From a virus, in the IMG/VR virus record IMGVR_UViG_3300000229_000003, positions 771-27,196 of that record: a stretch of DNA of 26,426 nucleotides; one strand, 5' to 3'. Both the position numbers and the translations under genes were made by a program. This document shows positions 4,661 to 26,277 of the stretch, piece by piece (position 1 is the first letter of the stretch; every line of letters starts with the position of its first letter). The notes beneath the pieces were generated by a model that was not told the DNA's origin, ran no database searches, and worked only from the letters and a program-made list of their open reading frames with translations.

Positions 4661-4662
4661 TG

Positions 4663-4685
4663 CTATATTACAAAATGTAACATAG
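4663..4685 (+). repeat. 23-bp palindrome, copy 1, on the portal ribosome-binding site
   Basis: The left arm is CTATATTACA, the centre AAA and the right arm TGTAACATAG. Nine of ten arm pairs match, with one A/C mismatch. The last two bases of the right arm (AG) are the first two of the AGGA ribosome-binding site for the portal gene at 4694. Near-identical copies lie at 9690, 16613 and 20464. Confidence 0.9.
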
Positions 4686-4693
4686 GAATCAAA

Positions 4694-6646
4694 ATGCCAG
4701 CAATAATAACAGGAGACAGTTCTTCAGGGGGGTTTGATCCTCAAAAGGACTTAGGGTATGAATACCCAGATAATCTTGATCTACGCCCAAATTCATCTCT
4801 CCACACTAAATTGAAGGATATGATTTATAGGCGCGCTCAAGAGTCGGCCAATACTATGTCAACCCGTCATAAAGTGTGGAGAGAGATTGATCACACTCTT
4901 ACTGCCTACATATCTTCTGATGACAAAGAGAGGATGCTCAAGGATGCGGATTCTAGGAAGCCTATCAGCATTGTATTCCCTTATTCATACACAGTTCTTG
5001 AAACTCTTCTCTCATACTACTGTGCTGCATTCCTTCAAGATCCCATCTTTCGATATGAAGGCACTGGACCTGATGATGTGATTGGGGCCATCTTACTTGA
5101 AAAGGTGATAGCTCTCCAATGTACCAAGAGTAAAGTAGGACTTAATCTTCACACCCAGGCTAGGGATGCATTTGCTTATGGCTTTGGCGCTGCCACACCT
5201 ACATGGAGGGTGGAGACTGGGACTAAGTATGAGACTATTGATCGTGGGGGGTTTTTAGGATTTGGCTCTAAGCCAGAGAAGGTTGAGAGGGAGATCATCA
5301 CTTATGAGGGTAATGCTCTTGATAATATAGACCCTTACCTATACTTACCAGACCCTAATGTCCCCATACATGACCCTCAGGCTGGAGAATACATAGGATG
5401 GGTATCACCTACTAATTACATGGCCTTATTGGCTGATGAGAAGACTTCTGATAATATCTTTAATGTGAAGTATCTCAAAGGTCTTACCAATAGAACGACT
5501 TCTATCTATAACGTGGATAACTCGGGTCGTGGAAGTAAGAGTGGTCTAAGAGGGCGAAATACACCAATTTCTGGGTTGACATCAGGCCTTGATGTTATTA
5601 AAATGTTTATAAAGCTGGTGCCTAAGGATTATAGCCTATCCCTTAGTGAGTATCCTGAGATATGGTACTTTGAACTGGCCTCTGATGCTGTGATCATCCA
5701 AGCAAGGAAGGCTAATCTGAGCCATAATAAATTCCCCACCGTGGTGATTGCCCCAGATTTTGATGGCTATTCTATGTCCCCCGTCTCAAGGATTGAGATG
5801 CTAAATGGGATGCAAGGAGTGTTAGATTTCATGTTCAACAGTCATGTGGCTAATGTAAGGAAGGCCATTCATGATATGATAATATACGACCCTTATCAAG
5901 TGAATAGTGAAGACTTGAAGAATCCATCAGCTGGAAAACTCATCAGACTCCGCCGCCCTGCATGGGGTCGTGGGGTTAAAGATGTTGCTCAACAACTTAT
6001 GGTTAATGACGTAACCAGGGGGAATGTGTCTGATTCCACTTGGATAGTTCAGTGGATGGACCGTATTAGTGGGGCTGATTCTGCTATGCAAGGTGCCCAG
6101 AGGCAAGGTGGCCCTGATCGACTTACATCTACAGAATTCCAAGGTACCATGTCAGGTGGGATTAATAGAATGGATAGGATTGCTAAAATCGTCGGGTTAC
6201 AGGGGATGCAAGATATTGGCACATTCTTCGCTCACCACAATAACCAGATGATGCAGGGTGAAGCGTATATTAAGTTAGCAGGGGAGTGGCAAGAAGTGTT
6301 GATGGCTGAGTATGGTGTGGCTGGAGATGGTAGGGGTAGAAAGCGAGTAACCCCTAAAGATCTTGACATTAATTATAATGTAATAGTTAGGGACGGCTCA
6401 GTACCTGGAGGTAACTACTCCTCCTCTTGGTTACAATTATTCCAGGTACTGGGTTCGAACCCTGAACTTGCTCAGAAGTTTGATGTAGTTAGGATTTTCT
6501 CACATATTGCCCGTAACTTGGGGGCTAAAAATGTTAATGACTTTGTAAGGACTGGTGGTAATATTAGCCCTAAAAGTATGCCTAATGAACAAGTCATGAA
6601 TGAAATGCAAGCAGGGAATTTAGTTCCGATGGGGGCTCAAGCATGA
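4694..6646 (+). CDS. Portal protein
   Basis: This 650-residue protein forms the dodecameric ring at the head vertex through which DNA is packaged and ejected. It comes directly after the large terminase and has the size and layout of portals from short-tailed and SU10-type phages. There is a helical N-terminal wing (KVWREIDHTLTAYIS near 57-71, then PYSYTVLETLL). A central part is rich in beta structure. A long-helix region near 455-520 has RISGADSAMQGA, then RLTSTEFQGTMSGG and a run of Arg, Met and Gln, which is typical of the portal stem and clip. The start is set by AGGA seven bases upstream, inside the edge of the 23-bp palindrome. Its stop overlaps the next start as ATGA. Confidence 0.88.
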   Translation: MPAIITGDSSSGGFDPQKDLGYEYPDNLDLRPNSSLHTKLKDMIYRRAQESANTMSTRHKVWREIDHTLTAYISSDDKERMLKDADSRKPISIVFPYSYTVLETLLSYYCAAFLQDPIFRYEGTGPDDVIGAILLEKVIALQCTKSKVGLNLHTQARDAFAYGFGAATPTWRVETGTKYETIDRGGFLGFGSKPEKVEREIITYEGNALDNIDPYLYLPDPNVPIHDPQAGEYIGWVSPTNYMALLADEKTSDNIFNVKYLKGLTNRTTSIYNVDNSGRGSKSGLRGRNTPISGLTSGLDVIKMFIKLVPKDYSLSLSEYPEIWYFELASDAVIIQARKANLSHNKFPTVVIAPDFDGYSMSPVSRIEMLNGMQGVLDFMFNSHVANVRKAIHDMIIYDPYQVNSEDLKNPSAGKLIRLRRPAWGRGVKDVAQQLMVNDVTRGNVSDSTWIVQWMDRISGADSAMQGAQRQGGPDRLTSTEFQGTMSGGINRMDRIAKIVGLQGMQDIGTFFAHHNNQMMQGEAYIKLAGEWQEVLMAEYGVAGDGRGRKRVTPKDLDINYNVIVRDGSVPGGNYSSSWLQLFQVLGSNPELAQKFDVVRIFSHIARNLGAKNVNDFVRTGGNISPKSMPNEQVMNEMQAGNLVPMGAQA

Positions 6647-6936
6647 GGAATAAAGATGTGTTGGAGAATCTAATCTACAAACATTGTGATTATTCCCCTA
6701 AAAGTTCGATTTCTAATTTGGAGAACTTTCTTGAAAGTTCTATATATAGGGATTTCTTGGAAGAGATGACTGTACGGATTGATGATATGAAACAATCTTA
6801 CGAGATTGGTGATAGTAAGAAGTATTTGGAAACCCGTGGGGCCTTAGCTGCTATGAGACTCGTTTCTGGCATTTTTGAAGACCTTTACGAAAACGCTAAA
6901 TCAGATTCAGAATTGGAGATTAAAGATGGAGAATGA
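6643..6936 (+). CDS. Small helical hypothetical protein coupled to portal
   Basis: This 97-residue protein, charged and helix-rich, starts in an ATGA overlap with the portal stop. It has no ribosome-binding site of its own, so it probably depends on ribosomes finishing portal. Heptad-like spacing in FLEEMTVRIDDMKQSYEIG suggests a short coiled coil. It also overlaps the start of the scaffold-like gene by 11 bases. A tight portal-X-scaffold order is common in phages, where X is often an accessory assembly protein, but I cannot name the family. Confidence 0.7.
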   Translation: MRNKDVLENLIYKHCDYSPKSSISNLENFLESSIYRDFLEEMTVRIDDMKQSYEIGDSKKYLETRGALAAMRLVSGIFEDLYENAKSDSELEIKDGE

Positions 6937-7747
6937 ATCTACTGACAGGGGTGTAGATGCCGCGGCCACTAGCACTCTTGTGGATGAGATTAATGAGTTG
7001 ATGGATTCCCCCTTAGAGGGGGAAGTAGGACCTTCTACTAATGATGACCTTACAGGTGAAGCTCCCTCTGGGGATGGCGTGACTGATGGGGAAATTGCTG
7101 TGGAGGGAGATGTGGGTAAGGTGTCTGAGATTGGGAGTGCGGATACTAAATTACCTGACCAGGTTCTGCAAGATGCTCAAGTCCCTAATGAGCTTGATAC
7201 TCTTAAAGCCCAGATAGAATCCCTCAAAGGGTTGGTGACACAGTTGGCATCTCCTAAAGAGGGGGCTAGGAAATCTCCTGAACTATCTTTAAACTTAGAT
7301 GATCTCATCAGCGGTGTTGACTTTGATGATATTATGGAGAGTAAAGAAAAGTTTATGGAGTTCATCAAGCAGGCCTTTCAAATCTCGACACAATCAACTA
7401 CTGGATATGTCCAGAATTTTGTGCCGGATGTAGTAACTCGCCATGTGAGTATGCAGGAGGTTAGAGAGAATTTCTACAGTGCTAATACTGACCTTAATGC
7501 TGTACGACCTTATGTGGCAATGGTAGCAAGTAATGTGGCTCAGGCTAACCCTGAATGGGGAGTTGCTGAAGTGTTAGTGAAAGCGGCTGAAGTCGCTCGA
7601 GAGTCACTTGGTATATCTAAGACACAACCTTCTGTTGATAAATCTAAAGGTAAACCTCCAGTGCTTCCAGGGGCTAGAGGGGTTCGCCAAGCAACTTCAC
7701 AGAAGAGTGACTTACAACAAGAAATTGATGAACTTTTGGAGGGTTAA
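6926..7747 (+). CDS. Putative capsid scaffolding protein
   Basis: This protein of 273 residues lies between portal and capsid, the usual place of a scaffold, which templates the shell and then leaves it. The first 100 residues are very acidic and rich in Gly, Ser, Asp and Glu. Next comes a helical LDTLKAQIESLKGLVTQLA (a coiled-coil candidate), then a central helical domain. A basic, Pro/Lys-rich linker (near 235-255) leads to a short C-terminal helix ending LQQEIDELLEG. A charged, largely disordered protein with a helical C-terminus is what scaffolds look like. I chose ATG 6926 because GGAG lies nine bases before it; the frame is open upstream to 6875 but overlaps the previous gene there. No protease domain is seen. 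Confidence 0.65.
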   Translation: MENESTDRGVDAAATSTLVDEINELMDSPLEGEVGPSTNDDLTGEAPSGDGVTDGEIAVEGDVGKVSEIGSADTKLPDQVLQDAQVPNELDTLKAQIESLKGLVTQLASPKEGARKSPELSLNLDDLISGVDFDDIMESKEKFMEFIKQAFQISTQSTTGYVQNFVPDVVTRHVSMQEVRENFYSANTDLNAVRPYVAMVASNVAQANPEWGVAEVLVKAAEVARESLGISKTQPSVDKSKGKPPVLPGARGVRQATSQKSDLQQEIDELLEG

Positions 7748-7749
7748 AA

Positions 7750-8055
7750 ATGAAAGAAGGTATGGCTATAGATGGAATGCTTACTGGGGTTCCTGTATTT
7801 GAGGCTATTAAGTTGGTAGGTAAAACTGTGGCAGCAACTACAGCTGGAACTACTAATGCAATTAGAGTATTTATGTATGATAATGATGGTTATATTATAC
7901 ACTCTACAGGTCTTGAAGTTCCTGCAGATGCAACTGCAGGATACGCCAAAGGTGCTTTGCACATAGATACTAATGTAACAGCTGGCACGTCAGGTCTTTA
8001 TGTTAATGTAGGAACTGCTGCAGCTGCTAATTTTGATCTTGTAACTGATGCTTAA
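7750..8055 (+). CDS. Head decoration-like protein, copy A
   Basis: This small protein of 101 residues carries a C-terminal block, GYAKGALHIDTNVTAGTSG then LYVNVGTAAAANFDL. The pattern YAKGxxxIDTxxxxGTxGLY is seen in many phage proteins encoded beside the major capsid gene, often annotated as head fibre or decoration proteins. The N-terminal half is beta-rich, without Cys or membrane segments. A strong GGAGGG site lies before the ATG. The gene is followed 14 bases later by a diverged copy of itself. A role on the outer capsid surface is inferred from family habit and position. Confidence 0.65.
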   Translation: MKEGMAIDGMLTGVPVFEAIKLVGKTVAATTAGTTNAIRVFMYDNDGYIIHSTGLEVPADATAGYAKGALHIDTNVTAGTSGLYVNVGTAAAANFDLVTDA

Positions 8056-8069
8056 TTTGGAGGGTTGTT

Positions 8070-8339
8070 ATGGCTTTATTTGGTAAGTTGTTCAATAGTA
8101 AGCTCCCTTGTATAACTATAGATGGAACTACAGTTGCAACTGGAGTTACGGCGCTTTTGAAAGATGGAAATGGTAAGGTGTTGTTAGCCACTGGGACTAC
8201 TGTGCCTGCTAATGGCACAACTAAGTATGCTAAAGGGTGCCTCTTCATCGATACTGATGTTGTTACTGGCACTACAGGACTTTATTGTAATAAGGGTACG
8301 GCAGCATCTGCTGCTTTTACTGCTGTTACTCAAGCTTAA
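8070..8339 (+). CDS. Head decoration-like protein, copy B
   Basis: This 89-residue paralogue of the preceding protein is clearly related across its C-terminal half: VPANGTTKYAKGCLFIDTD and then TGTTGLYCNKGTAASAAF. The N-terminal part is shorter and different, so only the C-terminal module is shared with confidence. It has GGAGGG seven bases upstream and lies directly before the capsid gene. It may decorate the same shell at a different site or form hetero-oligomers with copy A; this is inference. Confidence 0.65.
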   Translation: MALFGKLFNSKLPCITIDGTTVATGVTALLKDGNGKVLLATGTTVPANGTTKYAKGCLFIDTDVVTGTTGLYCNKGTAASAAFTAVTQA

Positions 8340-8363
8340 TTAATTTTGTAAGGAGATAAGATT

Positions 8364-9653
8364 ATGCCTTTTATGGGAATGCGTGGAACTGGTGACTGGG
8401 TAGCTGATCAACGACCTAAGTCTTGGCGGGAGATGATTCTTTATCGTTATCCCAATGGCACTGCACCTCTTACTGCAATTATGAGTAAGATAGGATCTGA
8501 GAGGGTTCCTGACTCTGAGTTTTATTGGTGGACTAAGTCTCTTCCAACTCAGCGGGCCGCAGTTACTGGAGTTTATACTGACTCAACTCTTGTGACTGCT
8601 TATACTACCAACACTGGAGTTGGCTCAACAGTGTATGTAAAAATGAGTGCTGCCGCTGTAGCACACTTTAGGGTTGGGCATCAAGTCCTGCTCCGTGATG
8701 CATCTGATCCGACTGTAGATGTTAATGCCAAAGTGACAAGTGCTGTAGTTAATGGCGTCTCATCTTATATTGCTTGCTTGCTTCTTGAGGCTGATGATAA
8801 TTCTACTACACATGATTTGAGTGATTGTGATACTGCTCTTATTATCGGTAATATTAATAGTGAAGGTGCAGCTATGCCTGACGCTATTGCATATGATCCT
8901 ACCAAATGGTATAACTATACTCAGATCTTCCGGACCCCTCTGGAAATAACACGTACTGCGATGAAGACTAAACTCCGTACTGGTGATCAGTATAAAGAGG
9001 CCAAGCGTGAGTGCCTTGAACTTCACTCCATTGAGATGGAGAAGGCTCTTATGTTCAGTATCGCGTCTGAGCGCACTGGGACGAATGGCAAGCCTGAGCG
9101 TACTACTATGGGCCTCATTCCTGCCATCAAGGCAGGTGGGTTAGTAAATGACTTTAGCCTTAATGCTAGTTCAGACTTCTCTGGCTACACATGGCTTCAG
9201 GCTGGTGAGTATTGGCTTGACACTTATCTTGAGCAAATCTTCCGTTACGGGTCAAGGGAGAAGTTGTGCTTTGCTGGGTCAGGAGCACTGTTGGCTATCA
9301 ATCGGTTGATTAAGGCAGGTGGAAATTTTGACTACAAAGCTGAGACTACCAGCTATGGTCTACAGGTCAGTAAGTGGGTCACTGCATTCGGTACAATCAA
9401 CGTGATGACTCATCCACTGTTCTCCTATGAAGTTACCACTCGTAATGCTATGGCTATCTTTGAGCCTAAAGATCTTAAGTTCATGTATATTGATGATACT
9501 ATGTATAAGTCTGACGATCAGATGACCAAAGGTGGGTGGACCAATAGGGATGGTCTTAAGGAAGAGTATCTCACTGAGGCTGGCCTTGAGTACCATCATC
9601 CTGATGGATGGGGATGGTTGACTGGGGTTGGGGTAGATAATAATATAACTTAA
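8364..9653 (+). CDS. Major capsid protein, SU10/DUF5309-like
   Basis: This 429-residue protein has the features of the SU10-type major capsid family (DUF5309, HK97 fold). The N-terminal segment reads WREMILYRYPNGTAPLTAIM and is followed by FYWWTKSLPTQ. A beta-rich insert lies near 85-165. The core includes YNYTQIFRTPLEITRTAMKT, ELHSIEMEKALMFS and later VMTHPLFSYE. The place after scaffold-like and decoration-like genes fits. An excellent AAGGAG lies before the ATG. A GC-rich hairpin starts ten bases after the stop, which suits a highly expressed gene that needs its own transcript end. The family call comes from memory of the sequence pattern, not a search. Confidence 0.82.
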   Translation: MPFMGMRGTGDWVADQRPKSWREMILYRYPNGTAPLTAIMSKIGSERVPDSEFYWWTKSLPTQRAAVTGVYTDSTLVTAYTTNTGVGSTVYVKMSAAAVAHFRVGHQVLLRDASDPTVDVNAKVTSAVVNGVSSYIACLLLEADDNSTTHDLSDCDTALIIGNINSEGAAMPDAIAYDPTKWYNYTQIFRTPLEITRTAMKTKLRTGDQYKEAKRECLELHSIEMEKALMFSIASERTGTNGKPERTTMGLIPAIKAGGLVNDFSLNASSDFSGYTWLQAGEYWLDTYLEQIFRYGSREKLCFAGSGALLAINRLIKAGGNFDYKAETTSYGLQVSKWVTAFGTINVMTHPLFSYEVTTRNAMAIFEPKDLKFMYIDDTMYKSDDQMTKGGWTNRDGLKEEYLTEAGLEYHHPDGWGWLTGVGVDNNIT

Positions 9654-9662
9654 TAAATATTA

Positions 9663-9690
9663 GGGGTGGGGTCAGTAATGGCCCCATTCC
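9663..9690 (+). terminator. Hairpin after the major capsid gene
   Basis: The arms GGGGTGGGGTC and GGCCCCATTCC pair over 11 bp (three are G-U pairs) around a six-base loop, AGTAAT. It lies ten bases after the capsid stop. No run of T follows, so it may act as a weak terminator, an RNA-end stabiliser or a processing point. Its last base is also the first base of the 23-bp palindrome. Confidence 0.55.
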
Positions 9691-9712
9691 TATATTACAA
9701 AATGTAACATAG
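9690..9712 (+). repeat. 23-bp palindrome, copy 2
   Basis: It is identical to copy 1 over the 23 bases, and here one more flanking pair (C at 9689, G at 9713) extends it to 25. The right arm again runs into the ribosome-binding site (AGGAGG, 9711-9716) of the next gene. Confidence 0.9.
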
Positions 9713-9722
9713 GAGGGAGATG

Positions 9723-9947
9723 ATGGCTAAAGAAGGTACTACCGCACATAATATGCTTTATGATAGTATTAATTCAGATGTTAATGCTCAAAAGTTAGCA
9801 GGTAGGATGGCTGTAAAAGAGATAGCCACTAAAGGTACAGCCTTTCCTGAAATAAAAAATTCTGCCCGTAGAAAAGCTGCAGATGATAGATTAATAGATA
9901 CATCTATACAAGGAATTAAAAAGGCTATAGATTTATCTAATAAATAA
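9723..9947 (+). CDS. Small basic hypothetical protein
   Basis: This protein of about 74 residues is rich in Lys, Arg, Ala and Asp, with no Cys, Trp or membrane segment. Helical stretches include NAQKLAGRMAVKEIATKG and ARRKAADDRLIDTS. I place the start at ATG 9723, six bases after AGGAGG; ATG 9720 is also in frame but is too close to it. It stands alone between the capsid hairpin plus palindrome and the adaptor gene, so it may be independently controlled. I do not recognise the family. A small internal or head-completion protein would fit its place. Confidence 0.65.
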   Translation: MAKEGTTAHNMLYDSINSDVNAQKLAGRMAVKEIATKGTAFPEIKNSARRKAADDRLIDTSIQGIKKAIDLSNK

Positions 9948-9964
9948 CTTACTTAGGGTTAACC

Positions 9965-10714
9965 ATGAACTTACTCCAAATTCGCACACAATTCATCAAG
10001 ATATCTGGGCGCTACGATCTGGTTAATCCCTCTACTTTTGCTGACGATGGGGCTGACTTCTACATCCAGCAAGGGCAAAGGTCACTGGAGAGGCGTCTGA
10101 ATATTAATCCTACAGTGGCTAAGTATTATACTGACTTATCAATTGGCCAGTATAAAGTCACTGTACAAAATTGTAGGGCCATTCAAGAAGTGTGGGTTAT
10201 GAATTCTACATCCCGTACTGAGGTTGCCAAAATTGGAGATTATGATCTTAGAGCAATCCATCAGAGGTTTGTGGCTAATATGTATTCTACACCCTTATCT
10301 ACAATGTCGCAGGGAAGGCCTACCCACTACTACCCCACTAATCTCCGACGTTCACCAGAGACTGAGGATGGCACAGGGGATTCATCCACTCTATCCTCAT
10401 ACCTAGACACATCCTACCCGTCTGACCCTGCAGCGTCAGGGATAATCTTACTCCCCCGCACGGATGAGGCCTACGGGATTGAGATCAAGGGACTCTTCTA
10501 CAGTCCCACCCTATATGTAGACACCTCCACTAATGTGTGGGCATCTGAGTATCCCACTCTATTGATATGGGCCGCTCTGCGAGAGCTTGAGATTATGTTC
10601 CGAGGTAGTAAGACTGCATCTTCATGGGAAGCTCTGATTGAGGGTGAGCTTATAAATGTCGAAAAGGATGCAATTGAGCAAGAAGTTAACAGTATTGATA
10701 AGATGGAGGGTTAG
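9965..10714 (+). CDS. Head-tail adaptor, SU10-adaptor-like
   Basis: This 249-residue protein matches the general pattern of the adaptor that binds beneath the portal ring in SU10-like phages. The N-terminal helix LLQIRTQFIKISGRYDLV is followed by ADFYIQQGQRSLERRLN, then beta strands (YYTDLSIGQYKVTVQNCRAIQEVWV). A C-terminal part with WASEYPTLLIWAALRELEIMF is a typical helix of these proteins. Position three genes after the capsid and before the stopper-like gene agrees. The ATG has only a modest AGGG site. It ends directly against the next ATG (TAG then ATG). The family name is from pattern memory; a generic connector is the fallback. Confidence 0.7.
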   Translation: MNLLQIRTQFIKISGRYDLVNPSTFADDGADFYIQQGQRSLERRLNINPTVAKYYTDLSIGQYKVTVQNCRAIQEVWVMNSTSRTEVAKIGDYDLRAIHQRFVANMYSTPLSTMSQGRPTHYYPTNLRRSPETEDGTGDSSTLSSYLDTSYPSDPAASGIILLPRTDEAYGIEIKGLFYSPTLYVDTSTNVWASEYPTLLIWAALRELEIMFRGSKTASSWEALIEGELINVEKDAIEQEVNSIDKMEG

Positions 10715-11071
10715 ATGATTACTCAGGAAGTTGAAGATAGAATTGTACTAAAGGTGATTGAGAGAATTTTAACCTTAATGCCTGAGGTAGTAGGAAATCT
10801 CATGGCTAATCATGCCAGTAATGCTAAAATTAAAGATGACTTTTATAGTAAGCATCCAAAGTTTAAAGATCACACTGATGTAGTACGAGAAGTTGTGGCT
10901 AAGATAGAAGGTGCTAAGTTAGGTCAAAACTATGAAGACATTTTAAATGGCGCCATTCCAGAAATTGAAAGTCAGATCAAATTAAAAACTACACTTAACA
11001 CTCAGGATGTTCTTCCTAAGAGTGAAGTCCCCAGAGTTCTATCCGAAGGTAGCCCATTTGGAGAATTATAA
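10715..11071 (+). CDS. Conserved-looking small neck-region protein
   Basis: This 118-residue helical protein has a central motif HPKFKDHTDVVREVVAKIEG (near residues 46-65), which I have the impression of seeing in similar positions beside phage adaptor genes. No catalytic motif or membrane segment is visible. GGAGGG lies before the ATG, and the stop overlaps the next start as TAATG, so it is translated together with the stopper-like gene. A neck or assembly role is inferred from context only. Confidence 0.65.
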   Translation: MITQEVEDRIVLKVIERILTLMPEVVGNLMANHASNAKIKDDFYSKHPKFKDHTDVVREVVAKIEGAKLGQNYEDILNGAIPEIESQIKLKTTLNTQDVLPKSEVPRVLSEGSPFGEL

Positions 11072-11571
11072 TGCCTCTTGAACTTACTAAAGATGGAATT
11101 TTCTCTATGCCCATAAAGCCTGAGATTTTATCTAAAGGTCTTCGTAGGAGTAAATCTAATTACCTTAATAGTGATGGGTTGATAGAGTGTGCAGGGGCTG
11201 TAGGTAAAGAAGGGGTACTTCAAAGGTTAGAGGAGTTAGTAAAAACTTTTGACTTAACTTCCACATTCCCATATCCTCAGATTTTCATCGAGCCTTATAT
11301 TATTTTAGTATGCACTGCCACTCATATATATGAGTATGATGGGAGTAATTTAATACTTAAGATATCCACTGCATTTGTAGGGTCTACTTGGAATTTAATA
11401 ACTGTAGAAGATTTTGTGTATATGAGTAATGGGGATATTACTGTAGTGCGAGATCCTATATCAAACATATTTAGCATTACAAGTGAGCATCCTACTGCTA
11501 TGGCAATATGTAATTATAACGGGCAAATTATTATAGGGGCCCCCAATGCTGGGTATAATTTAGGAGATTAA
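11071..11571 (+). CDS. Stopper/nozzle-like protein, N-terminal half (apparently truncated)
   Basis: These 166 residues look like the first blades of the beta-propeller-like neck protein of short-tailed phages. The opening is basic (PIKPEILSKGLRRSKSNYLN), then come GAVGKEGVLQRLEEL, PYPQIFIEPYIILVCTATH, IYEYDGSNLILKIS, WNLITVEDFVYMSNGD and finally ICNYNGQIIIGAPNAG. In such proteins, as I recall them, the chain continues for several hundred residues after the NGQxxxGAP strand. Here it ends seven residues after GAP, and the last codons (YNLGD) are made from the ribosome-binding site of the next gene. The likely continuation is the gene at 14093. GGAG lies before the ATG. Either a natural short form or one half of a split protein is possible. 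Confidence 0.6.
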   Translation: MPLELTKDGIFSMPIKPEILSKGLRRSKSNYLNSDGLIECAGAVGKEGVLQRLEELVKTFDLTSTFPYPQIFIEPYIILVCTATHIYEYDGSNLILKISTAFVGSTWNLITVEDFVYMSNGDITVVRDPISNIFSITSEHPTAMAICNYNGQIIIGAPNAGYNLGD

Positions 11572-11572
11572 A

Positions 11573-12031
11573 ATGGCTAATCAGTTATCTAATAGTGCAA
11601 AGACAATGTTATGGAAGGGGCAGATTAATGCTGCAACTGATACGTTTAAGATGGTTTTAATGGATTTAGGATTTACATTTGATAAAGATAATCATAAAAA
11701 GTACACAGATATAAGTACTTTTGAATTACCTACAGGTAATGGATATACTGCTGGAGGGGTGACATTAATTCTTAACGCTATCACTACGGATAATGTAGAA
11801 GATAGGTGTGAAGTTACCTTTCAAAATGCTCAATGGACGGCCAGCGGTGGGTCTCTAGCCGTGGTAGGAGCTATTATTTATAATGACTCTACAAACTCTA
11901 GTTCTGGAGATGACTACACTGATGCCGTTATATGCTGGTTAGATGCTAATGGGGTACAGACCGTGGCTGATGGTGCTGCGCTGACTGTATCTAATATTAT
12001 GCTAACTGGTGAAGATATATCTATTAGTTAA
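11573..12031 (+). CDS. Phage structural protein, beta-rich
   Basis: This 152-residue protein has a pattern familiar from small phage virion proteins: ISTFELPTGNGYTAGGVTL, then VTFQNAQWTASGGSLAVVGAIIY and ADGAALTVSNI. It is mostly beta strand. It begins two bases after the truncated stopper-like gene, whose last codons serve as its TAGGAG site. It is the first gene of a four-gene group (11573-14082) ahead of the second stopper-like half. It is probably a fibre-associated or tail surface protein; the exact role is unknown. Confidence 0.65.
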   Translation: MANQLSNSAKTMLWKGQINAATDTFKMVLMDLGFTFDKDNHKKYTDISTFELPTGNGYTAGGVTLILNAITTDNVEDRCEVTFQNAQWTASGGSLAVVGAIIYNDSTNSSSGDDYTDAVICWLDANGVQTVADGAALTVSNIMLTGEDISIS

Positions 12032-12043
12032 TCGGAGATTATC

Positions 12044-13219: not shown

Positions 13220-13229
13220 AGGTGAAATT

Positions 13230-13745
13230 ATGGGACTTAAAGGGTTTATTCAGAAGGATTATTATTCTAAAATCAGCAGGGTAATAGTTGATATAGATAT
13301 GGGGGAGATTAGTTTTGAGCTTAGAACTTTTAACCACAAAGGTGGGAATGAAGTAATTAATCCTATGGAGTTTAAGATTATTAGGGCTATAGAAGTTAAG
13401 AAGTATTTAGATACTCTCCCTACTAATACCCTAACTCCTCCAACATATCCAGAATTATGCACTGCTAGAGAGGCTTTAGTACCTATGTGGCCAGATGGGA
13501 CACTTCAGCCAGAGATTAATGAGTACAACAATGTTCTAATAGCCTACAATGAAGCTCTGGATACTTACAATGCATCTATAGTAGCTGCAGATGCAGCTAA
13601 AGATGCTAAGGCTGAAACTGATAATGATTATGAGAAATATTTTTCACATAGGAAATTATTCACTACCAGCAATATATTGGCATGTGCATATACTTACCTC
13701 AAAACCAGAGATAGTTTTGTAGGAGTTAACGATGCCGAAGATTAA
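13230..13745 (+). CDS. Hypothetical protein downstream of the fibre
   Basis: This 171-residue protein starts with a beta-rich part (KISRVIVDIDMGEISFELRT) and continues with a long helical stretch rich in Ala, Asn and Tyr (NEYNNVLIAYNEALDTYNAS, AADAAKDAKAETD). The second half may form a coiled coil. AAGGTGA lies seven bases before the ATG, and the stop overlaps the next gene by 14 bases. Position directly after the fibre suggests a fibre chaperone or a connector, but no family is recognised. Confidence 0.6.
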   Translation: MGLKGFIQKDYYSKISRVIVDIDMGEISFELRTFNHKGGNEVINPMEFKIIRAIEVKKYLDTLPTNTLTPPTYPELCTAREALVPMWPDGTLQPEINEYNNVLIAYNEALDTYNASIVAADAAKDAKAETDNDYEKYFSHRKLFTTSNILACAYTYLKTRDSFVGVNDAED

Positions 13746-14082
13746 ACCTCCTTGTATTAGAAATCTGGCTCGCTTCTCAGATGGGTGTCCTAAGATGGGG
13801 TGGGATGGAGAGGAAGGTTGTCCTGCATGGGTTGAACTTACTTATAAAGCAGACGATCCATCTAAACCTGACGTTATTGTTAAAGCGTGTATGGATTTAG
13901 TAATTTTTGATCTAAAATTCAAATCTTTGAAACTCCTTGAGGGTAATCAACTTGCTACGGAGGGTCTTAGGAATGGGCTGTGTGAGAGTGTTAATGGTAA
14001 GGTGGAACCTAAACCTGATCCTGCCATAACTCACCTACTCCATCTGATGACCCAGTCTCATAATACTTTATTAAGTTCTTAA
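13732..14082 (+). CDS. Small Cys-rich hypothetical protein
   Basis: This 116-residue protein has Cys at residues 8, 19, 29 and 53 in its first half (CIRNLARFSDGCPKMGWDG, then EGCPAW and VKACMDL). The spacing suggests a metal-binding site or disulfide clusters. The remainder is helical. It has no ribosome-binding site of its own and starts inside the previous gene, so it probably depends on translational coupling. It is the last gene of the group that separates the two stopper-like halves. I do not know the family. Confidence 0.6.
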   Translation: MPKIKPPCIRNLARFSDGCPKMGWDGEEGCPAWVELTYKADDPSKPDVIVKACMDLVIFDLKFKSLKLLEGNQLATEGLRNGLCESVNGKVEPKPDPAITHLLHLMTQSHNTLLSS

Positions 14083-14092
14083 GAGGTCTATC

Positions 14093-15310
14093 ATGCTTGG
14101 GAATATAATTCTTGGGAGTGGCATTTATGGAGACAAACTCCTGGGCATATATACTGTTGAAGTATCAGCTAATATTAATAACAGTAAGATAGGAGTCTTA
14201 TATAGATGTCATGGGGTGTTCAGCTCATTCCATACAACTCTGCGAATTCCTGATCTTGACACTTATATAGACTTAGCAAATATAGATTACATACCTAGGA
14301 TGGGTTTAGGTGTGTATGGTAACTTTGATGAATTCGGGACAACCCTACTTACACGTTTAGCTCTTGGGGCATATTCTAAATTTATCAATCCTGAAATAGT
14401 TGCTAGAGGGTATGTAAGGCTATTATTAGATATTGGTGCAATCTTTCACCTATCCCACCCTTATAGTAACTGGATTGCGTGGAGTAATATAGGGGAGTTA
14501 AATTTTAATATAGATTCCTCCAATGTAGCAGGTAAAATGCCTATTGGGTTTAAAGGATTTATCTATGCTATTGAGCAATTAGGAGATAGTAAATTAATCT
14601 TTGTATATGGAGATAGTGGGATTGCTGTTATAACTCCTCAAGATCTTTTTTACAAGAAAGGGTTGGTATCTAAGGTAGGTATCAAGGGGAATGGGGCGGT
14701 GGTTAATACTGGAGAGTCTCACTATTTTATAAACACTGTGGGGGAACTCTATAGGGTTAGTGGGGATGGGAAGATTGTTAAGTTAGGGTATAGAGAATTC
14801 CTATCTCAGATGCCCCTACCTTACATGTCCTACGATGATGTTAATAGTTTAGTCTACATATGTGATGGAACTTTAGGGTATGTGTATTCAGAGGATAGTG
14901 AAAGCTTAGGCACTGGCCCTGTGAATATTACAGGGGTTAAGTGGCAGGATGATAATATGTGGGTAGGGGCTTCTAATACGATTGCGCATCCCGCCTTTAG
15001 CATAGTCACAGACATATATGATATGGGGACTAGGAAGGGTAAGACAATATCAGGCCTGGCTCTAACAGTTAGTGATCCTACAGGCCTTAATGCTGCCATT
15101 GATTTTAGACTTTCGTCTAAAGATCCTTTTACATCTACCCCAACTTTAGGTGTAGGACCCGATGGGAATGTCAAACTTCCATGCTATGGAGTGGAATTTA
15201 GATTTAGAATAGGTGGCACTACTGTGGCTGAAGATCTTAAGATAGAGTCTATTATAGTCAAAGGGCGAATACATGACTATATGTATTTAGATACTGATCA
15301 CATTAATTAG
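14093..15310 (+). CDS. Stopper/nozzle-like protein, C-terminal part
   Basis: This 405-residue protein shows the strand pattern of the later blades of a beta-propeller-like neck protein. NWIAWSNIGELNF is followed by MPIGFKGFIYAIEQLGDSKL, FVYGDSGIAVITP, GNGAVVNTGESHYFINTVG, ELYRVSGDGKIVKLGYREFL and LVYICDGTLGYVYSED. The C-terminal beta domain has IVTDIYDMGTRKGKTISGLA. The N-terminal 110 residues (LGSGIYGDKLLGIYTVEVSA, then repeated LGVYG/LGAYS strands) are less clear. It has its own GAGG site, so it is expressed separately from 11071-11571. It probably forms the tail opening or plug. Its relation to that gene is argued in the findings. Confidence 0.65.
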   Translation: MLGNIILGSGIYGDKLLGIYTVEVSANINNSKIGVLYRCHGVFSSFHTTLRIPDLDTYIDLANIDYIPRMGLGVYGNFDEFGTTLLTRLALGAYSKFINPEIVARGYVRLLLDIGAIFHLSHPYSNWIAWSNIGELNFNIDSSNVAGKMPIGFKGFIYAIEQLGDSKLIFVYGDSGIAVITPQDLFYKKGLVSKVGIKGNGAVVNTGESHYFINTVGELYRVSGDGKIVKLGYREFLSQMPLPYMSYDDVNSLVYICDGTLGYVYSEDSESLGTGPVNITGVKWQDDNMWVGASNTIAHPAFSIVTDIYDMGTRKGKTISGLALTVSDPTGLNAAIDFRLSSKDPFTSTPTLGVGPDGNVKLPCYGVEFRFRIGGTTVAEDLKIESIIVKGRIHDYMYLDTDHIN

Positions 15311-15318
15311 GGGGTAAG

Positions 15319-15771
15319 ATGGTAATAAAACTTCAGCCTGTACAGATTCCACCCTACTGGGAGAGTATTAAGTTAGCGGCCATTAAGGCTAATGAGGTCA
15401 GAGATGAGAATGTCCAAGAGTATTCCATTAGACTTCTTTTAAATCTATTAAACAGTAACTTACAATGCTTAGTCAGCGTTGACCATGATAAGAACATCCA
15501 GAAGATTACCATTATAGGGATCTACTATGATGAAATTCTTAAAGAAAAATTCATGAGTATTGAGAGTATCTATGGATTCCAAAAGATGGCCCATGAAGAG
15601 TGGCTTAAGGAGTCTAAGATTTTATATAGATATGCCCAAGATGAGAAATGTACCAGCGTCAGAATGTGTACTAATAATTCTATAATAGTGGAACTCGCTA
15701 ATAGATACGGTATGGCTGAGGTTAGTAGAAATTACACTATAAATTTAAAGGGGGTAGATTATGGGGGGTAG
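15319..15771 (+). CDS. GNAT-like hypothetical protein
   Basis: This 150-residue protein has an alpha/beta pattern like a degenerate acetyltransferase fold: LVSVDHDKNIQKITIIGIYY, a central helix EEWLKESKILYRYAQDEKC, then SVRMCTNNSIIVELANRYGM and a final strand. The glycine-rich acetyl-CoA loop (Q/RxxGxG/A) is not seen, so enzymatic activity is doubtful. Proteins of this shape occur next to stopper genes in other phages, as I recall. GGGGG lies just before the ATG, and the stop overlaps the next start by 11 bases. The assignment is tentative. Confidence 0.5.
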   Translation: MVIKLQPVQIPPYWESIKLAAIKANEVRDENVQEYSIRLLLNLLNSNLQCLVSVDHDKNIQKITIIGIYYDEILKEKFMSIESIYGFQKMAHEEWLKESKILYRYAQDEKCTSVRMCTNNSIIVELANRYGMAEVSRNYTINLKGVDYGG

Positions 15772-16609
15772 TAGTGGCGGTGGGAGCACTTCAAGTACTA
15801 ATATAAGATACGCATCTTATATAGAATCTCAGCATCAGACATTTTTAAGCATTGTGGCTGGTTATAGGGATAGCCTTATAGGAGATTCCCCCTTTAGTAA
15901 CTTTGTAGATATAGATACAGACGCAGGATTTTTAGGTGTGGGGGTAACTATAAAATCTTACTCAAGTCTGTTTAAGAATTTTAATGATTTTATGGTAGAC
16001 GTAGTCCCACAAACACTGTATGATACTATATTCTCTAAAGTCATGGCTTCACCAGTGATTAAGGAAGCTGTAGTAGCTGAAGGAAAGTTGCTTAGTGAGG
16101 ATGTTAACACGGAGGCCTACCCAAGATTGATGGCCGGAGCCAGAGATCTTAATGCTGTGATGAGTAGTACATTTATTATAGCTAAGAGTAATATAGAGAG
16201 TCAGCGACTAAGGCTACTTTCTAAATATAGTACTAACCTTAAATATTCCATGCTGCCAATTAGTAGTGATATATGGAAGACATCATTAGAATGGAATAGA
16301 CAGATAGTAAATACGCATATTCAAAGTATTCAATTATACTATGATATGCATAAAACTAATAGTGAGTATAATTATACCACGCGTACTAAGAATGCTATGT
16401 GGCCTTTCACGGTGATTGATCAAGAAAGGGCAGCTCTTGGAGCTTTACAAGCAGCTCAGAGTAGTGAGAGTATACAAGGTGGGGGTCCCAGTACAGGTGC
16501 TAAGGTAGTGGGTGGCGCTATGGCTGGTGCTGCTGGAGGCTACATGGCAGCTGGCCCTTATGGGGCAGTAGTTGGTGGAGTATTAGGTGGAATTGCAGGA
16601 CTTCTTTAA
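15761..16609 (+). CDS. Internal virion (ejection) protein with C-terminal glycine zipper
   Basis: This 282-residue protein begins with a Gly/Ser-rich tip, then a helical body (SQRLRLLSKYSTNLKYSML, SLEWNRQIVNTHIQSIQLYY). It ends in a membrane-inserting glycine zipper near residues 248-282 (GGAMAGAAGGYMAAGPYGAV, then VVGGVLGGIAGLL). Short-tailed phages carry such proteins in the capsid and eject them to form a channel through the cell envelope. Its position at the head of the ejection-protein run fits. It overlaps the previous gene by 11 bases, with GGGGG just upstream. It is followed by palindrome copy 3, which leads the next gene. Confidence 0.72.
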   Translation: MGGSSGGGSTSSTNIRYASYIESQHQTFLSIVAGYRDSLIGDSPFSNFVDIDTDAGFLGVGVTIKSYSSLFKNFNDFMVDVVPQTLYDTIFSKVMASPVIKEAVVAEGKLLSEDVNTEAYPRLMAGARDLNAVMSSTFIIAKSNIESQRLRLLSKYSTNLKYSMLPISSDIWKTSLEWNRQIVNTHIQSIQLYYDMHKTNSEYNYTTRTKNAMWPFTVIDQERAALGALQAAQSSESIQGGGPSTGAKVVGGAMAGAAGGYMAAGPYGAVVGGVLGGIAGLL

Positions 16610-16612
16610 TTG

Positions 16613-16635
16613 CTTTATTACAAAATGTAACATAG
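16613..16635 (+). repeat. 23-bp palindrome, copy 3
   Basis: The right arm and centre are identical to copies 1 and 2; the left arm reads CTTTATTACA, one base different. The AGGAG ribosome-binding site (16634-16638) of the gene at 16645 again starts at the last two bases of the right arm. Confidence 0.9.
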
Positions 16636-16644
16636 GAGAATGAT

Positions 16645-17079
16645 ATGACTACAGGTGGAACTGGTGGAACTGATTGGGGATTTTTTGGGGGTACAGGTGC
16701 GGATGGTAACTTTAAGGCAAACCCTGAGTTTCTTAGGATGTTAGCCAGTATGGGAAGTAATATTGCGCAAGGTAAGAGTGGTGGTGAGGCTATAGGGGAT
16801 GCTACTATGGAAGCCCTCAAGATGAGAGCATTGCAAGGGAATAATCCTCAAACAATTAAGCCAACCCCTAAGGGCCAAGCTGGGCCTGATAGTATTACCA
16901 CTAAAGAGACTGCTGATGGGATTACTCAAACTATCCAGACACCATCTAAGACGAATTTAAATACTTATGGTACATCAGTACCTCCCGAGTCTATGAGTAC
17001 AGCTTCCATGGGGGGAGTGTCTGAACAGCCCCCTTTTTGGGAAGCCTTTCTGGGGCAGAGCAACAATCCCCAAATGTAG
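16645..17079 (+). CDS. Internal virion protein, N-terminal frame (possible frameshift partner)
   Basis: This 144-residue protein is rich in Gly, Thr, Ser, Pro and Gln, mostly disordered, with one helix (PEFLRMLASMGSNIAQG, near 28-44) and GGEAIGDATMEALKMRALQG. It ends PPFWEAFLGQSNNPQM. The next gene has no clear start of its own and lies in the -1 frame, open from 17025. A C CCT TTT heptamer at 17031-17037 is in the correct register for a -1 slip, and a GGGGAG purine run ends 14 bases before it. The slip would give a fused product of 438 residues. Whether both forms exist is not known. Confidence 0.7.
   Translation: MTTGGTGGTDWGFFGGTGADGNFKANPEFLRMLASMGSNIAQGKSGGEAIGDATMEALKMRALQGNNPQTIKPTPKGQAGPDSITTKETADGITQTIQTPSKTNLNTYGTSVPPESMSTASMGGVSEQPPFWEAFLGQSNNPQM
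17031..17037 (+). promoter_or_regulatory. Candidate -1 ribosomal frameshift site
   Basis: The heptamer reads C CCT TTT in the frame of the upstream gene, an exact X XXY YYZ pattern. A Shine-Dalgarno-like GGGGAG (ending 17016) precedes it, and a short 5-bp hairpin, TGGGG/CCCCA (17051-17072), follows. Slippage joins the gene at 16645 to the frame ending at 17960. Five C then five T also make this a spot for sequencing indels. Confidence 0.5.
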
Positions 17080-17960
17080 GGAGTGGTGTAGATAGTTCTA
17101 ATCTTGTTAGGCAAGTCTTAGGGAATATGGATCTTCGAGGTCTAAGTCCAGAAGATGTATATAAACTGATGCATGGTGGATTGCAGAATAAGCAATTAGA
17201 GAACGTTAACCAATACTACAAGGGCCAACAAGATCAGAGTAATGCGGAGCTTAAGCAAAAAGCCGATCAGGCTATTCAGGAGAATAAGCTCAAAGGATCT
17301 GAGGAGTTTAGGAAGTGGGTTGATCTTAAACTGCAAGCTGGTGAGATTAAGCCTGGAGCTCCAATCCAAGTTGGAGATGTATGGAAGCAGCCTTATCATG
17401 ACAAGTATGGGAACCTAGTTAAGTTTGAGGAAATGGGGCCTGCACCTACCAAAGATTTCAAAGCCCAGAATAAAGAACTTCTTAAAGATGCTCAGGGGAA
17501 TCCCTACTGGGCAGGTCCAGGAGACCCTGTTAAGTCAGGGTCTGTACCTATAGCCAGTAAGGATAATGAGTACTCTATCACTGATCAGTATACTCTCAGT
17601 GTTTTAAAATCTGGCGTGGAGAGTGGGGTAGATGCTAAGGGTGATGATATTGATGAGGTCACTAGAGATAATAACATGACTTTGGTCAACGCCAATGATG
17701 CGCACGATCAGTATATTAAGATTCCTGGGAAGCCTATTCCTGGAGGTGGCTTTGGTGGTTGGGTTGATAAGGATGTTCCAGCTCAGTATATTAAGATCCC
17801 TAAACAGGTTTCCAAGATTATGAACCTTCCTGATGATAAGGTCGTATATTATGATGAGAAAACAGGAAAGGTTCTAACCGTTGGGGCGATCAAGCAGCTG
17901 GCCAAAGACAAGGGATACACACCAGAGGAATTTCTCAAGATTGCCGGAATTGCTAAGTGA
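17037..17960 (+). CDS. Ejection-region protein, -1 frame continuation
   Basis: The frame is open from 17025. The only in-frame starts are a TTG at 17037 with no ribosome-binding site and an ATG at 17127 with AGGG only three bases away. This makes translation by frameshift from the previous gene plausible. The protein is charged and helical at first (SSNLVRQVLGNMDL, LSPEDVYKLMHGGLQNKQLE, then a Gln/Lys-rich stretch likely to be coiled coil). Further on is a beta-rich half with APIQVGDVWKQPYHDKYGN and VYYDEKTGKVLTVGAIKQLA. It ends in YTPEEFLKIAGIAK. No enzymatic motif is seen. It lies between two ejection-type proteins and likely joins the same internal complex. It overlaps the GTG upstream of the giant gene. 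Confidence 0.65.
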   Translation: MGSLSGAEQQSPNVGSGVDSSNLVRQVLGNMDLRGLSPEDVYKLMHGGLQNKQLENVNQYYKGQQDQSNAELKQKADQAIQENKLKGSEEFRKWVDLKLQAGEIKPGAPIQVGDVWKQPYHDKYGNLVKFEEMGPAPTKDFKAQNKELLKDAQGNPYWAGPGDPVKSGSVPIASKDNEYSITDQYTLSVLKSGVESGVDAKGDDIDEVTRDNNMTLVNANDAHDQYIKIPGKPIPGGGFGGWVDKDVPAQYIKIPKQVSKIMNLPDDKVVYYDEKTGKVLTVGAIKQLAKDKGYTPEEFLKIAGIAK

Positions 17961-17968
17961 GGTTAAAG

Positions 17969-20900
17969 ATGCAAAGTATATTTGACATTCCATCTAAGGG
18001 GCAGCCTCTACAATATGGAGGAGAGGATTTTGATAATATTATTAATGATATTAGTAATGCTCAAGGTGTCGACCCTAAACTTATCCGTGCTATAGTACAA
18101 ACTGAGAGTTCTTTTAATCCTAATGCCACTAATCCTGAGAGTAGCGCCAGTGGGTTGATGCAACTGGTGAAGGAAACTGCCAGTGATATGGGGGTTAAGA
18201 ATGTTTTTGACCCTAGGGAGAATATCACTGGAGGGGTCAAGTACTTCAAGCAGCAGTTGGACACTGCGGGAGGGGATGTAGATAAGGCTCTCGCTATGTA
18301 TAATCAAGGGCCAGGTGGAGATCTTAGTAAGGCTCAAGATTATGTGGGTAAGGTGAGAAGTATATATGGGGGACAGCCCACTGCGCAGCCTCAGGATATT
18401 GATATGAGCAGCCTTATAGATACGTATGGGCAGAGTCCATATCCAGAGGGTAAAGTTTATGAGAAGCCTCCCTTATTATTGACGCAACTTATAGACCCTG
18501 CTAAGAAAGGGTTCTCAGATGCAGCATCTACCCCGCTTCCAGATACTACTGGCAAACTACCATTTGGATTTGAGAATACTGGCGGCCCTATTGCACGTTG
18601 GAGTAAGGATGTGCTCTATGGATTGGGTGAGTTCGGGATGCAGTTAGGGGCAAGTATAATTGGATTACCAGCTGCGGCCATTGGAGGGACTGCTAAGGCT
18701 ATTACGAGTGGGCCGGAGGCAGGGGGAGAGACCTTCAATCAGATAGCTCATGCTGCTATAGGGGATTCTCAGACTACTACAGCTAAAGTCCTCATGCGGC
18801 CTTTTGAGGTAGTGTTTGGAGGAATATTAAACACTGGAGCTGAATATATTAAGGCTTCTTACCCAAATGCTACTCCAGAAGAGTTAGATCATAAGATCAA
18901 AGCCACCCAGTTCTTCATGAATGTGGCGATGATAGCTCCGATGTTTAAAGGGGCGTTTAAAGGTAGTAGGGGGATTGATCCTAATAACCCCGCTAAGGCT
19001 CTGGCTTCTCAGGAGATCACAGCTGAGGGAGCGGCTAAGGCTAAGGCTCAGATATTGAGTGACCCTAATGTAGCTCCAGAGGTGAAGGTTGAAGTTGAGG
19101 GGATAGATGTAGGGGTACTTAATGAGATTAAAGATAGGGCTGCTAAGAAGGTTGCCAGTGATAGGGTTAAGGATGCGCCCATCCCAGAGGCTAAATTTGC
19201 GGGAAATCAAAGTATAGTTGAAGGCCTCCTCATTGAGGCTGAGTTAAGAGACGATGCTAATGGTAAAGGTAGTATACGTAAAGCTGCCAAGATAGTTGCA
19301 GACCTTGAACAAGATGCCGGATTAGTTGATTTTAACCCTATTAAAGGTATCAGGGTTAAGGGTACTACAGGTAAACTTATTGTTAAGTTAGTTGCTGAAA
19401 GGGATGCTGCAAATGCTAAGGAGGCACTTCCAGATAATGGGATGTTTGCCCCACCGTTAGGAGTTAAGGGTGAAGCTCCAGCTAAAACGTTTACTGATAT
19501 TTCTATTGACACTGACAAGGGCCCTTTAGATCTTAGAATATCCAGAAACCCTGATGGTAGCATTATTATAATTGATAGTACAGGGGCTGTTATTGAGTTA
19601 AAACCTGGGGCGTTAGTAGATCAGAGTACACTGTTTGAGAATGGTAAGAAAGTCTCAGACTTAACAGATGCTGAACTTGCCGCATATCAATTTGAGCCTA
19701 TACTTTCTGATGCTGCGTACTATAAAGTTAAGGGTGAAGAGCCTCCTAAATCTATTGAAGATATCCCCCCTAAAGGTGAAGCCTCTTCAGAAGTACCAGT
19801 TGTAGAGTCTCAACCTGTGGGTGGAACTCCCATTGAAGAAGCTAATGCCCCAGTTATTAGTGAATTCAATGATATTAAGATGGCCAAGGGTGAGGGGTAT
19901 ACTTTCCCCACTAAGAAGACTTTCCCCACTTTAGAAGCTGCTCAGGCTAAGGCCACTGAAATGGGTGACGGGCATGAGGTAATTAAGGTTGGGGAGAAGT
20001 ATAGGGTTGCTAAATATATAGATGAGCCTGTGGTTGCTGAGTTTAAATCAGTAGCTGAAGCTAACGCTGCGGGGTTCGATGTAATGAGTGAGATTCCAGA
20101 AAGACGCCTTAAGTATTATGAAGTAGGGGAGGGTGGTACTGAGCCTATTAAGATAGGGGATAAATATTATAGGACTGTTGAATTTGCTGAGATGCCAGAG
20201 ACCTTTGAGGTAATGGCTGAGGAGCCTACTTCTAAGAGGGTAGAGACATGGGAAGATGATGTTAGTCCAGCTGAGTGGGCAGCGTTGGAGGCGGAAGTAG
20301 GAAAGGCCACGTTAGATGAGATCAAGGCGCAGGATAGAATTAAGGCCTTAAGTGGTGAGCTTGAAGTTGAGGCTAAAGCTGCGGAGGAGATTGGAGTTAA
20401 GGCTCCTGCTGATCCCGCCCGCGTGGCACAACTTCAGAAAGCGTATAAGGAGTGGCAGGATTCCTATGTTACAAAATGTAATATAGCACAGACTCCCAAG
20501 AAAGATGCCCCTCCTAAAACCCCAATCACTAAAGAAGCCCTTGCCCTTGCCAAGGATGACTTCAAATCTTTCGAGTCCGAGCAGGCCGCCACTGATTGGA
20601 TGATGGCTAATGATACTTATGGGAAGTTAGTAGAAAATCCTGAGACTGGTCGGTGGAGTATAGCTAATGCTGAGAAGTTCAAGAATTTGGACGAGTTAGA
20701 TATGTTCGATGAAGGGGTGGAGCAGCTAACAGGACGTTCGGAATCCTTGTTAGATGGGGATGCCTACCCAGATATGGATATGAGTGATACAGGGGTTAGG
20801 GATTTATTTGACATATTTAATAATGAGAGAGGGAGTGTTAGTACTGATGTTGCAAGTGGGCCTCTTAAGCATATAATTGATAAGTTCGGTGATAGAGTAG

Positions 20901-25360: not shown

Positions 25361-26277
25361 TATAACTCACCTTCCCATTCAATGTTAAGTTTAGACGCTG
25401 CCCAATCTAAGGCTCTCCCACATTCAACTGGAGTTGCGAAGTTATCCTTAAGGAGTTGTCTGGTAGCTTTCTTAGACATCCCCTCTTTAAGACCTTTAAC
25501 AGCTATAGATCTAAACTTATCTGCTTTAGACTCGGTAGGTCTGATAGTATACTCGTCAAGCTCTAAGAATTGTACGTCAACTATTCCTTCATCAGTTATT
25601 TTAAATGTTAAAGGTTTTGATTTTGCAGTAAGATTGAATTTAGTCTGAGTTATAATTCTACCATTTGGCCTGTTGTTTTTATCAAAGTCCATTGTCATTA
25701 CAGATCGGGATAGGTCTGTAATGGCTCCAGATCCTGAGATAGAATCTAAAGTTATACTTCCATCATCCCCAGTTTGCTTCTTCTTATTATGTGCTAAGAG
25801 GAGAATTCCAGTATCGCACCCTACAGAGATTTTAGAAAGCTCTGCATAGAATTGTGCTACATGATCACGGCGATTAGAGTCGAATGTTTTAGATAGAGAT
25901 GTAAAGGAGTCTATGATTACTAGATCTGGCGAGTATTCTCTAACAAGATCATACATTTCTACAATAGTCTCAGGGCTGGTAGTGGTAGGAAGATCATCTT
26001 CTGTGTTAAGTACGAATTGAATTTTGTCTAAATGCTCCATATTCCATTTAGAGGCTCTATCCTTGTGGTGGAAGCCTACTCTTTCAGCATCAAAGAAGAT
26101 TACCTTCTTACCTTGACCCGCTAGGAAGTTAGCTAGCCATAGGGCGAATCCTGTTTTACCCACCCCTCCACGAGACGCCAATACGGATACACAACTACGG
26201 GGAATAAGAGGTTCCCATATCCATTCTAAAGGCTTAATAGCTTTCATTACCGTTACTCCGTCGCTTAAGTAATACAT
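25360..26277 (-). CDS. RepA-like/AAA_25 hexameric helicase ATPase
   Basis: This 305-residue RecA-fold ATPase is of the RepA/AAA_25 type, a replicative helicase or a helicase-like recombination factor. Residues 35-42 form the Walker A (SRGGVGKT). FFDAER follows near 61-66, and 119-123 is the Walker B (LVIID). Residues 158-166 are ILLLAHNKK with the conserved His163 of the motif-3 strand. The C-terminal 60 residues look like a winged helix (MSKKATRQLLKDNFATPVEC). It is the first gene of the leftward operon, with AGGA eight bases before the ATG. The zinc finger of a primase is absent. Together with the DUF3987-like partner it probably forms the phage replication engine. Confidence 0.8.
   Translation of the reverse strand: MYYLSDGVTVMKAIKPLEWIWEPLIPRSCVSVLASRGGVGKTGFALWLANFLAGQGKKVIFFDAERVGFHHKDRASKWNMEHLDKIQFVLNTEDDLPTTTSPETIVEMYDLVREYSPDLVIIDSFTSLSKTFDSNRRDHVAQFYAELSKISVGCDTGILLLAHNKKKQTGDDGSITLDSISGSGAITDLSRSVMTMDFDKNNRPNGRIITQTKFNLTAKSKPLTFKITDEGIVDVQFLELDEYTIRPTESKADKFRSIAVKGLKEGMSKKATRQLLKDNFATPVECGRALDWAASKLNIEWEGEL

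Follow-up and report, generated by a model that had tools for sequence, protein, structure and literature searches.

Dispersed palindromes in a phage family as probable parS/NBS-like sites of a ParB-methyltransferase fusion protein

Why does one palindrome recur several times in the virion gene block of a phage, and which molecule recognizes it? We addressed this question for a 26,426-nucleotide stretch, referred to here as the window, which corresponds to positions 771 to 27,196 and thus most of the 27.2-kb IMG/VR virus record IMGVR_UViG_3300000229_000003. An original prediction, made from the sequence of this stretch, had located four copies of a 23-bp palindrome at window positions 4663, 9690, 16613, and 20464 and proposed that they share one function, namely, that of a translational operator, a DNA operator or promoter element, or a mobile palindrome that brings a start site with it. 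All four copies were confirmed. Those at 4663 and 9690 are identical, and those at 16613 and 20464 have one and two mismatches, respectively. With up to 3 mismatches allowed, the expected count in the window is 0.00, and no copy was found in 100 shuffles of it; chance does not account for the four copies. The data presented below suggest that these palindromes are probably nucleation sites similar to parS and to Noc-binding sites (NBS), serving a phage protein in which a ParB-CTPase domain and a helix-turn-helix (HTH) domain are fused to an N6/N4 DNA methyltransferase.

A palindromic site family in related phages

Using the portal protein of the window, we retrieved 62 related contigs. Many of them have a diverged version of the palindrome directly upstream of the portal start, and a matrix scan revealed that it recurs on both strands. 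The search of related phages proposed along with the original prediction was productive: the long records examined contain 4 to 24 copies of a 25-bp palindrome per genome, as compared to none in reversed-sequence controls. The genomes carrying these sites measure approximately 40 to 50 kb. The conserved site length is 25 bp, and the flanks hint at up to 29. The architecture of the palindrome is constant across lineages and its sequence is lineage specific, such that each genome has its own version; examples are GCTATGTTACATAATGTAACATAGC, AGATCGTTTAATAATTAAACGATCT, and, in the Desulfofustis phage record OP947158 (W01), GCTATGTCCCAAATTGGGACATAGC. De novo detection in early-region loci, of which more than 200 were collected by three polymerase-based scans, likewise showed a shared 23-bp layout with many different sequences.

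We located 269 sites in 19 long genomes. Gaps between co-directional genes contain 198 of them, divergent gaps 18, and convergent gaps 8, and a further 41 are within genes; coordinates in the relatives depend on a simple purpose-made gene caller. Most sites are in short intergenic gaps, some pairs are found in divergent control regions, and homologous site locations recur among related phages. In the relatives, the giant ejection-protein gene accounts for approximately half of all intragenic sites. The site in this gene is kept in many genomes, and the peptide that it encodes differs by phage (SYVTK, SVQKM, PDRLKIER, and others); it is therefore the DNA that is conserved and not the peptide. 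The coefficient of variation of the site spacing ranged from 0.39 to 0.67, as compared to 0.81 to 1.06 for random intergenic gaps, and the largest gap between sites was 4.5 to 9.4 kb. Spacing was more even than a random intergenic choice in all 18 genomes tested and significantly so (P ≤ 0.05) in 16 of them; these genomes are related, and we did not rely on a combined P value. Even spacing, together with the retention of a site in one gene that is too long to be skipped, points to genome coverage. A scatter of copies at random relative to genes had been named as an argument against a common function; the sites turned out to be neither random nor bound to particular genes.

Identification of the protein that reads the sites

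Two conserved early proteins were candidate readers. One is a ribbon-helix-helix (RHH)-like protein of 71 to 87 amino acids without a Pfam or PHROG match (e.g., L083:3671-3913), the gene of which lies between an RPA-like gene and the fusion gene in the majority of these phages and frequently follows shortly after a site. The other is the fusion, a protein of 430 to 450 amino acids that combines ParB_N (ParB-CTPase) and an HTH of the ParB type with an N6/N4 DNA methyltransferase. All of the 76 fusions examined have CTPase boxes II and III, and 71 of them have methyltransferase motif IV. A profile search of the PDB with the fusion retrieved Noc (2.5e-20), Spo0J (6e-16), an N4 methyltransferase (1.6e-18), and CcrM (1.7e-15). 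Its AlphaFold model (pLDDT of 85.8) matched CcrM, Noc, and ParB-CDP in Foldseek; the matches listed by VIA-align were methyltransferases and were uninformative on the ParB half. The recognition helix aligned unambiguously with that of Noc in an ungapped profile comparison (score of 13.1; next, -0.7).

The distribution of both candidates differs. The fusion is absent throughout the records L272, L322, and L366, and none of these has a site family. L272 retains the RHH-like protein and other neighbors, and its approximately 72% identical relatives have sites. The opposite combination, sites in the absence of the RHH-like protein, was found in G020 (16 sites), L344, and L367. This double dissociation, along with the lack of co-variation described next, led us to reject the RHH-like protein as the reader.

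Whole-protein Mantel tests had no discriminating power. Window-wise co-variation was analyzed in 76 non-redundant genomes. Among approximately 1,000 windows of 30 amino acids in five proteins, the best predictor of site similarity, after removal of polymerase distance, was the HTH of the fusion (r = 0.39); the maxima were 0.285 for 393 polymerase windows and 0.12 for the RHH-like protein. The co-varying residue is the fourth of the GxSX helix start and aligns with R173 of Caulobacter ParB. Histidine at this position goes with G (11/15 versus 1/61; phi = 0.78; 7 parsimony changes), aspartate, asparagine, or glycine with the ..AA outer base (phi = 0.94), and lysine with ..CG. As controls we used residue traits with a similar number of changes on the tree, and none of 2,642 and none of 3,306 such traits, respectively, was as strong as the first two associations. 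When all columns of the five proteins were compared to all site positions (15,392 mutual-information tests), the R173-equivalent residue took both of the top ranks, in combination with the base at 7 bp (Z = 8.0) and the base at 6 bp (Z = 7.3) from the dyad, and the next helix residues pair with bases nearer the dyad. According to the parS sequence, base 1 of parS is 6.5 bp from the dyad. In Caulobacter ParB, R173 contacts this base, and R173Q switches the preference from G to A; R173/Q158 has been shown by experiment to be the specificity residue (PMC7383237). The co-variation thus indicates that specificity is set by the ParB-type HTH at the R173-equivalent position, and on these sequence comparisons it is very likely that the fusion reads the sites. 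The proposal that the copies share one function, possibly through a DNA-binding protein, is borne out.

Proposed role and alternative explanations

Since ParB and Noc slide after being loaded at their specific sites (PMC8429893), we infer a similar mode of action for the fusion. Its dimer would bind the palindromes, and CTP (cytidine triphosphate) would turn the bound dimer into a closed clamp that slides, in analogy to ParB and Noc. Clamps loaded every 2 to 5 kb could thereby bring the methyltransferase to all parts of the phage genome, the modification of which would most likely serve against host restriction. From our analysis, clamp loading at the sites appears moderately likely. More tentative is the idea that delivery of methylation is the main purpose, and we are equally cautious about the specific version in which, in a phage without integrase, a CTP-driven clamp delivers the methyltransferase by sliding from some 10 to 20 evenly placed sites and not by free diffusion. 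At its sites the fusion might spread methylation, silence genes, or organize the DNA.

A number of observations weigh against this interpretation. (i) With 25 bp, and perhaps 29, the sites exceed the 14 to 16 bp of parS and NBS, leaving the outer-arm contacts unexplained. (ii) Five of the 76 fusions have an altered motif IV (DFPY, DSPY, DPDF, or DPDW) and still keep sites; they are possibly inactive enzymes that retain a DNA-binding role. (iii) At some loci the fusion is present with no or a weak site family (e.g., L167, L180, L283, L332, L333, and L339); G009, for example, has a weak family with 5 copies versus a null maximum of 4 in a relaxed search. No site family was found in the distant phages Mel-JY34, ctMlz233, and VS-ABTNL-3, which have fusion homologues. 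(iv) Only three records lack the fusion, and they are perhaps incomplete. (v) The co-varying residue was initially chosen after viewing the helix, although the unselected full scan ranks it first, and a few columns of the RPA-like neighbor also score (Z up to 6.0). (vi) The 27-kb fragment containing the window does not include the fusion gene; contig L005/G014, the portal of which is identical to that of the window, carries it, suggesting that the window phage does so as well.

The other possibilities raised by the palindrome are not equally compatible with the data. An RNA hairpin at ribosome-binding sites, with a role as translational operator or in processing, would agree with the palindromic nature of the element and with the three intergenic window copies, in which the terminal AG of the right arm extends into the Shine-Dalgarno sequence of the following gene (portal, 4694; open reading frames [ORFs] 9720 and 16645). 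This register, central to the original prediction, holds in the window but is unremarkable across the phage family, in which the Shine-Dalgarno length upstream of genes is 4.34 with and 4.27 without a site. In addition, arm mismatches on the sense strand were more frequently A.C than G.U (127 versus 39 in a first count and 210 versus 97 in the 269-site set), and selection for a hairpin, which tolerates G.U and avoids A.C, would leave the opposite; an RNA hairpin is therefore disfavored as the general case. Considering also the inverted intragenic copies, the copies in divergent and convergent gaps, and the co-variation with a DNA-binding helix, an element locked to ribosome-binding sites has a minimal probability, and the sites appear to act at the DNA level and not at the RNA level. 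A mobile palindromic repeat (REP- or RPE-like) spread by insertion is just as improbable. It would account for several copies in intergenic gaps and also in frame within a gene, but not for the even spacing, for homologous locations in related phages, or for the lineage-wide change of all copies, which track the helix of a single protein. Recognition by the RHH-like protein, in the manner of the P22 repressors Arc and Mnt, is only marginally less remote. This protein is encoded in most site-bearing genomes, in 8 of the 9 genomes examined first its gene has a site upstream, and the operator size would be compatible with an RHH tetramer. However, apart from the double dissociation and the low co-variation, its presumed DNA-contacting strand is nearly invariant while the sites differ, so that the sites follow neither the presence of the protein nor its strand residues.

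The main rival to methylation delivery is silencing as carried out by KorB: the same fusion would use the sites as operators to silence or time transcription, similar to KorB or to the L5 stoperators, and the methyltransferase would be secondary. Most sites are within transcribed operons between co-directional genes, some pairs are in divergent control regions, sites are kept by the five fusions with altered methyltransferase motifs, and long-range silencing is known from KorB, itself a clamp of the ParB family (PMC11790492). On the other hand, spacing tracks distance and not operons or promoters, no promoter motif was detected in the site flanks, the positions of which are nearly free of information, and sites in the middle of a 5- to 6-kb gene are ill-suited to the control of starts. 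Furthermore, integrase (PF00589) and HTH_3 repressors were each found in 0/18 genomes (other integrase or repressor types could remain), as was ParA above the AAA_31 cutoff. These absences disfavor both lysogenic repression and ParABS partition; a stoperator/repressor hypothesis, the first one tried, was abandoned as a consequence. We therefore regard the operator role as unlikely, albeit the most serious of the alternatives.

The fusion-site pair proposed here shares with Noc/NBS of Bacillus and with ParB/parS the ParB-CTPase fold (boxes II and III) with an HTH, several palindromic nucleation sites dispersed round the replicon, and specificity at the residue aligned with R173/Q158 (PMC7383237, PMC8429893). 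It differs in being phage borne and methyltransferase fused, in its longer sites, and in their even spacing in a 40- to 50-kb genome; given the site length, it would be a variant that works like parS/NBS and not a canonical parS or NBS. KorB/OB of plasmid RK2 is likewise a ParB-family clamp that acts on operators of its own replicon and slides from distal sites, but it has no methyltransferase fusion and silences promoters together with KorA (PMC11790492). The stoperators of cluster A mycobacteriophages (L5 Rep) and SPBRE/MrpR of SPbeta are also dispersed repeats, each set with one phage protein (PMC6550527, PMC10516654). They are repressor sites of temperate phages, with an immunity repressor plus integrase or parABS in the L5 type, and stoperators are asymmetric and have one orientation, whereas the sites described here are palindromic and have inverted copies despite the sense-strand bias of A.C over G.U. 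Fusions of ParB-CTPase and N6_N4 methyltransferase with the same two domains have recently been catalogued as common and enriched in phages; the passages of that survey consulted here give no DNA sites, role, or tested function for them (PMC12704722), and we found no report of such sites in the open-access literature searched. The co-evolving, genome-wide site set would provide these fusions with a DNA target, in dozens of lineages and with many specificities. With it, their function becomes accessible to tests on short synthetic DNA. The site set also amounts to a natural collection of switches in ParB specificity and suggests that a phage genome could be modified or organized by means of clamps.

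Features of the window and additional observations

The coordinates of the sites and associated genes are provided in Table 1. The reverse complement of the 20464 copy is TGCTATATTACATTTTGTAACATAGGAATCC, which is the same as the portal copy, flanks included. The window also encodes an SU10-type portal and capsid and a large terminase, and its minus strand carries two DNA metabolism genes.

Table 1. Coordinates of sites and genes in the window and of fusions with an altered motif IV
Feature	Record	Coordinates	Strand	Context
Site 1, 25 bp, GCTATATTACAAAATGTAACATAGG	Window	4662..4686	+	Gap from large terminase stop (4660) to portal start (4694)
Site 2, 25 bp, CCTATATTACAAAATGTAACATAGG	Window	9689..9713	+	Gap from major capsid gene to 75-amino-acid ORF 9720-9947
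Site 3, 25 bp, GCTTTATTACAAAATGTAACATAGG	Window	16612..16636	+	Gap from ORF 15761-16609 to ORF 16645-17079 (144 amino acids)
Site 4, 25 bp	Window	20463..20487	-	Within giant SLT/ejection-protein ORF; inverted relative to sites 1 to 3
Giant internal/ejection protein gene, SLT domain, 1966 amino acids	Window	17957..23857	+	Contains site 4
Altered-motif-IV fusion	W01 (OP947158)	10342-11634		Keeps sites
Altered-motif-IV fusions	L252, L341, L183, L355			Keep sites

Two further palindromes were noted. An AT-rich one of 44 bp, TGATAAAATGTATAATTTGTTATAACATATTATACAAATTATCA, at window positions 26322 to 26365, directly upstream of the AAA_25/DnaB-like gene on the minus strand, is outside the site family. 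A different palindrome, TTCTATGTGGAGAACCACATAGAA, is found at 95 and 44411 of W01, in the 127-bp terminal repeat of this record. The AAA_25 gene, which is beside DUF3987 in the window (25360 to 26277), is missing there in G014, in which the polymerase adjoins DUF3987; by sequence comparison, the two phages, although very close elsewhere, appear to be mosaic at this place.

A scan of bacterial genomes returned only contigs binned into metagenome-assembled genomes (MAGs). The family contigs L373, L374, L375, and L378 (46 to 50 kb) are in public MAGs labeled Nanohaloarchaea, Clostridia, WOR-3, and unclassified bacterium; these four labels are discordant, so binning is probably wrong and the host labels are untrustworthy.

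Repeats were observed in two other regions of the window. ORF 1189-2343, which resembles a surface repeat protein in sequence, contains tandem 78-bp repeats (1712 to 2101) encoding NMSxMFxxNxSCQSYxFPxGFG. The small, adjacent ORFs at 7750-8055 and 8070-8339, upstream of the capsid gene, are apparent tandem duplicates that share a repeat (family D18; 79% over 33 nucleotides), and the same cluster is present in relatives.

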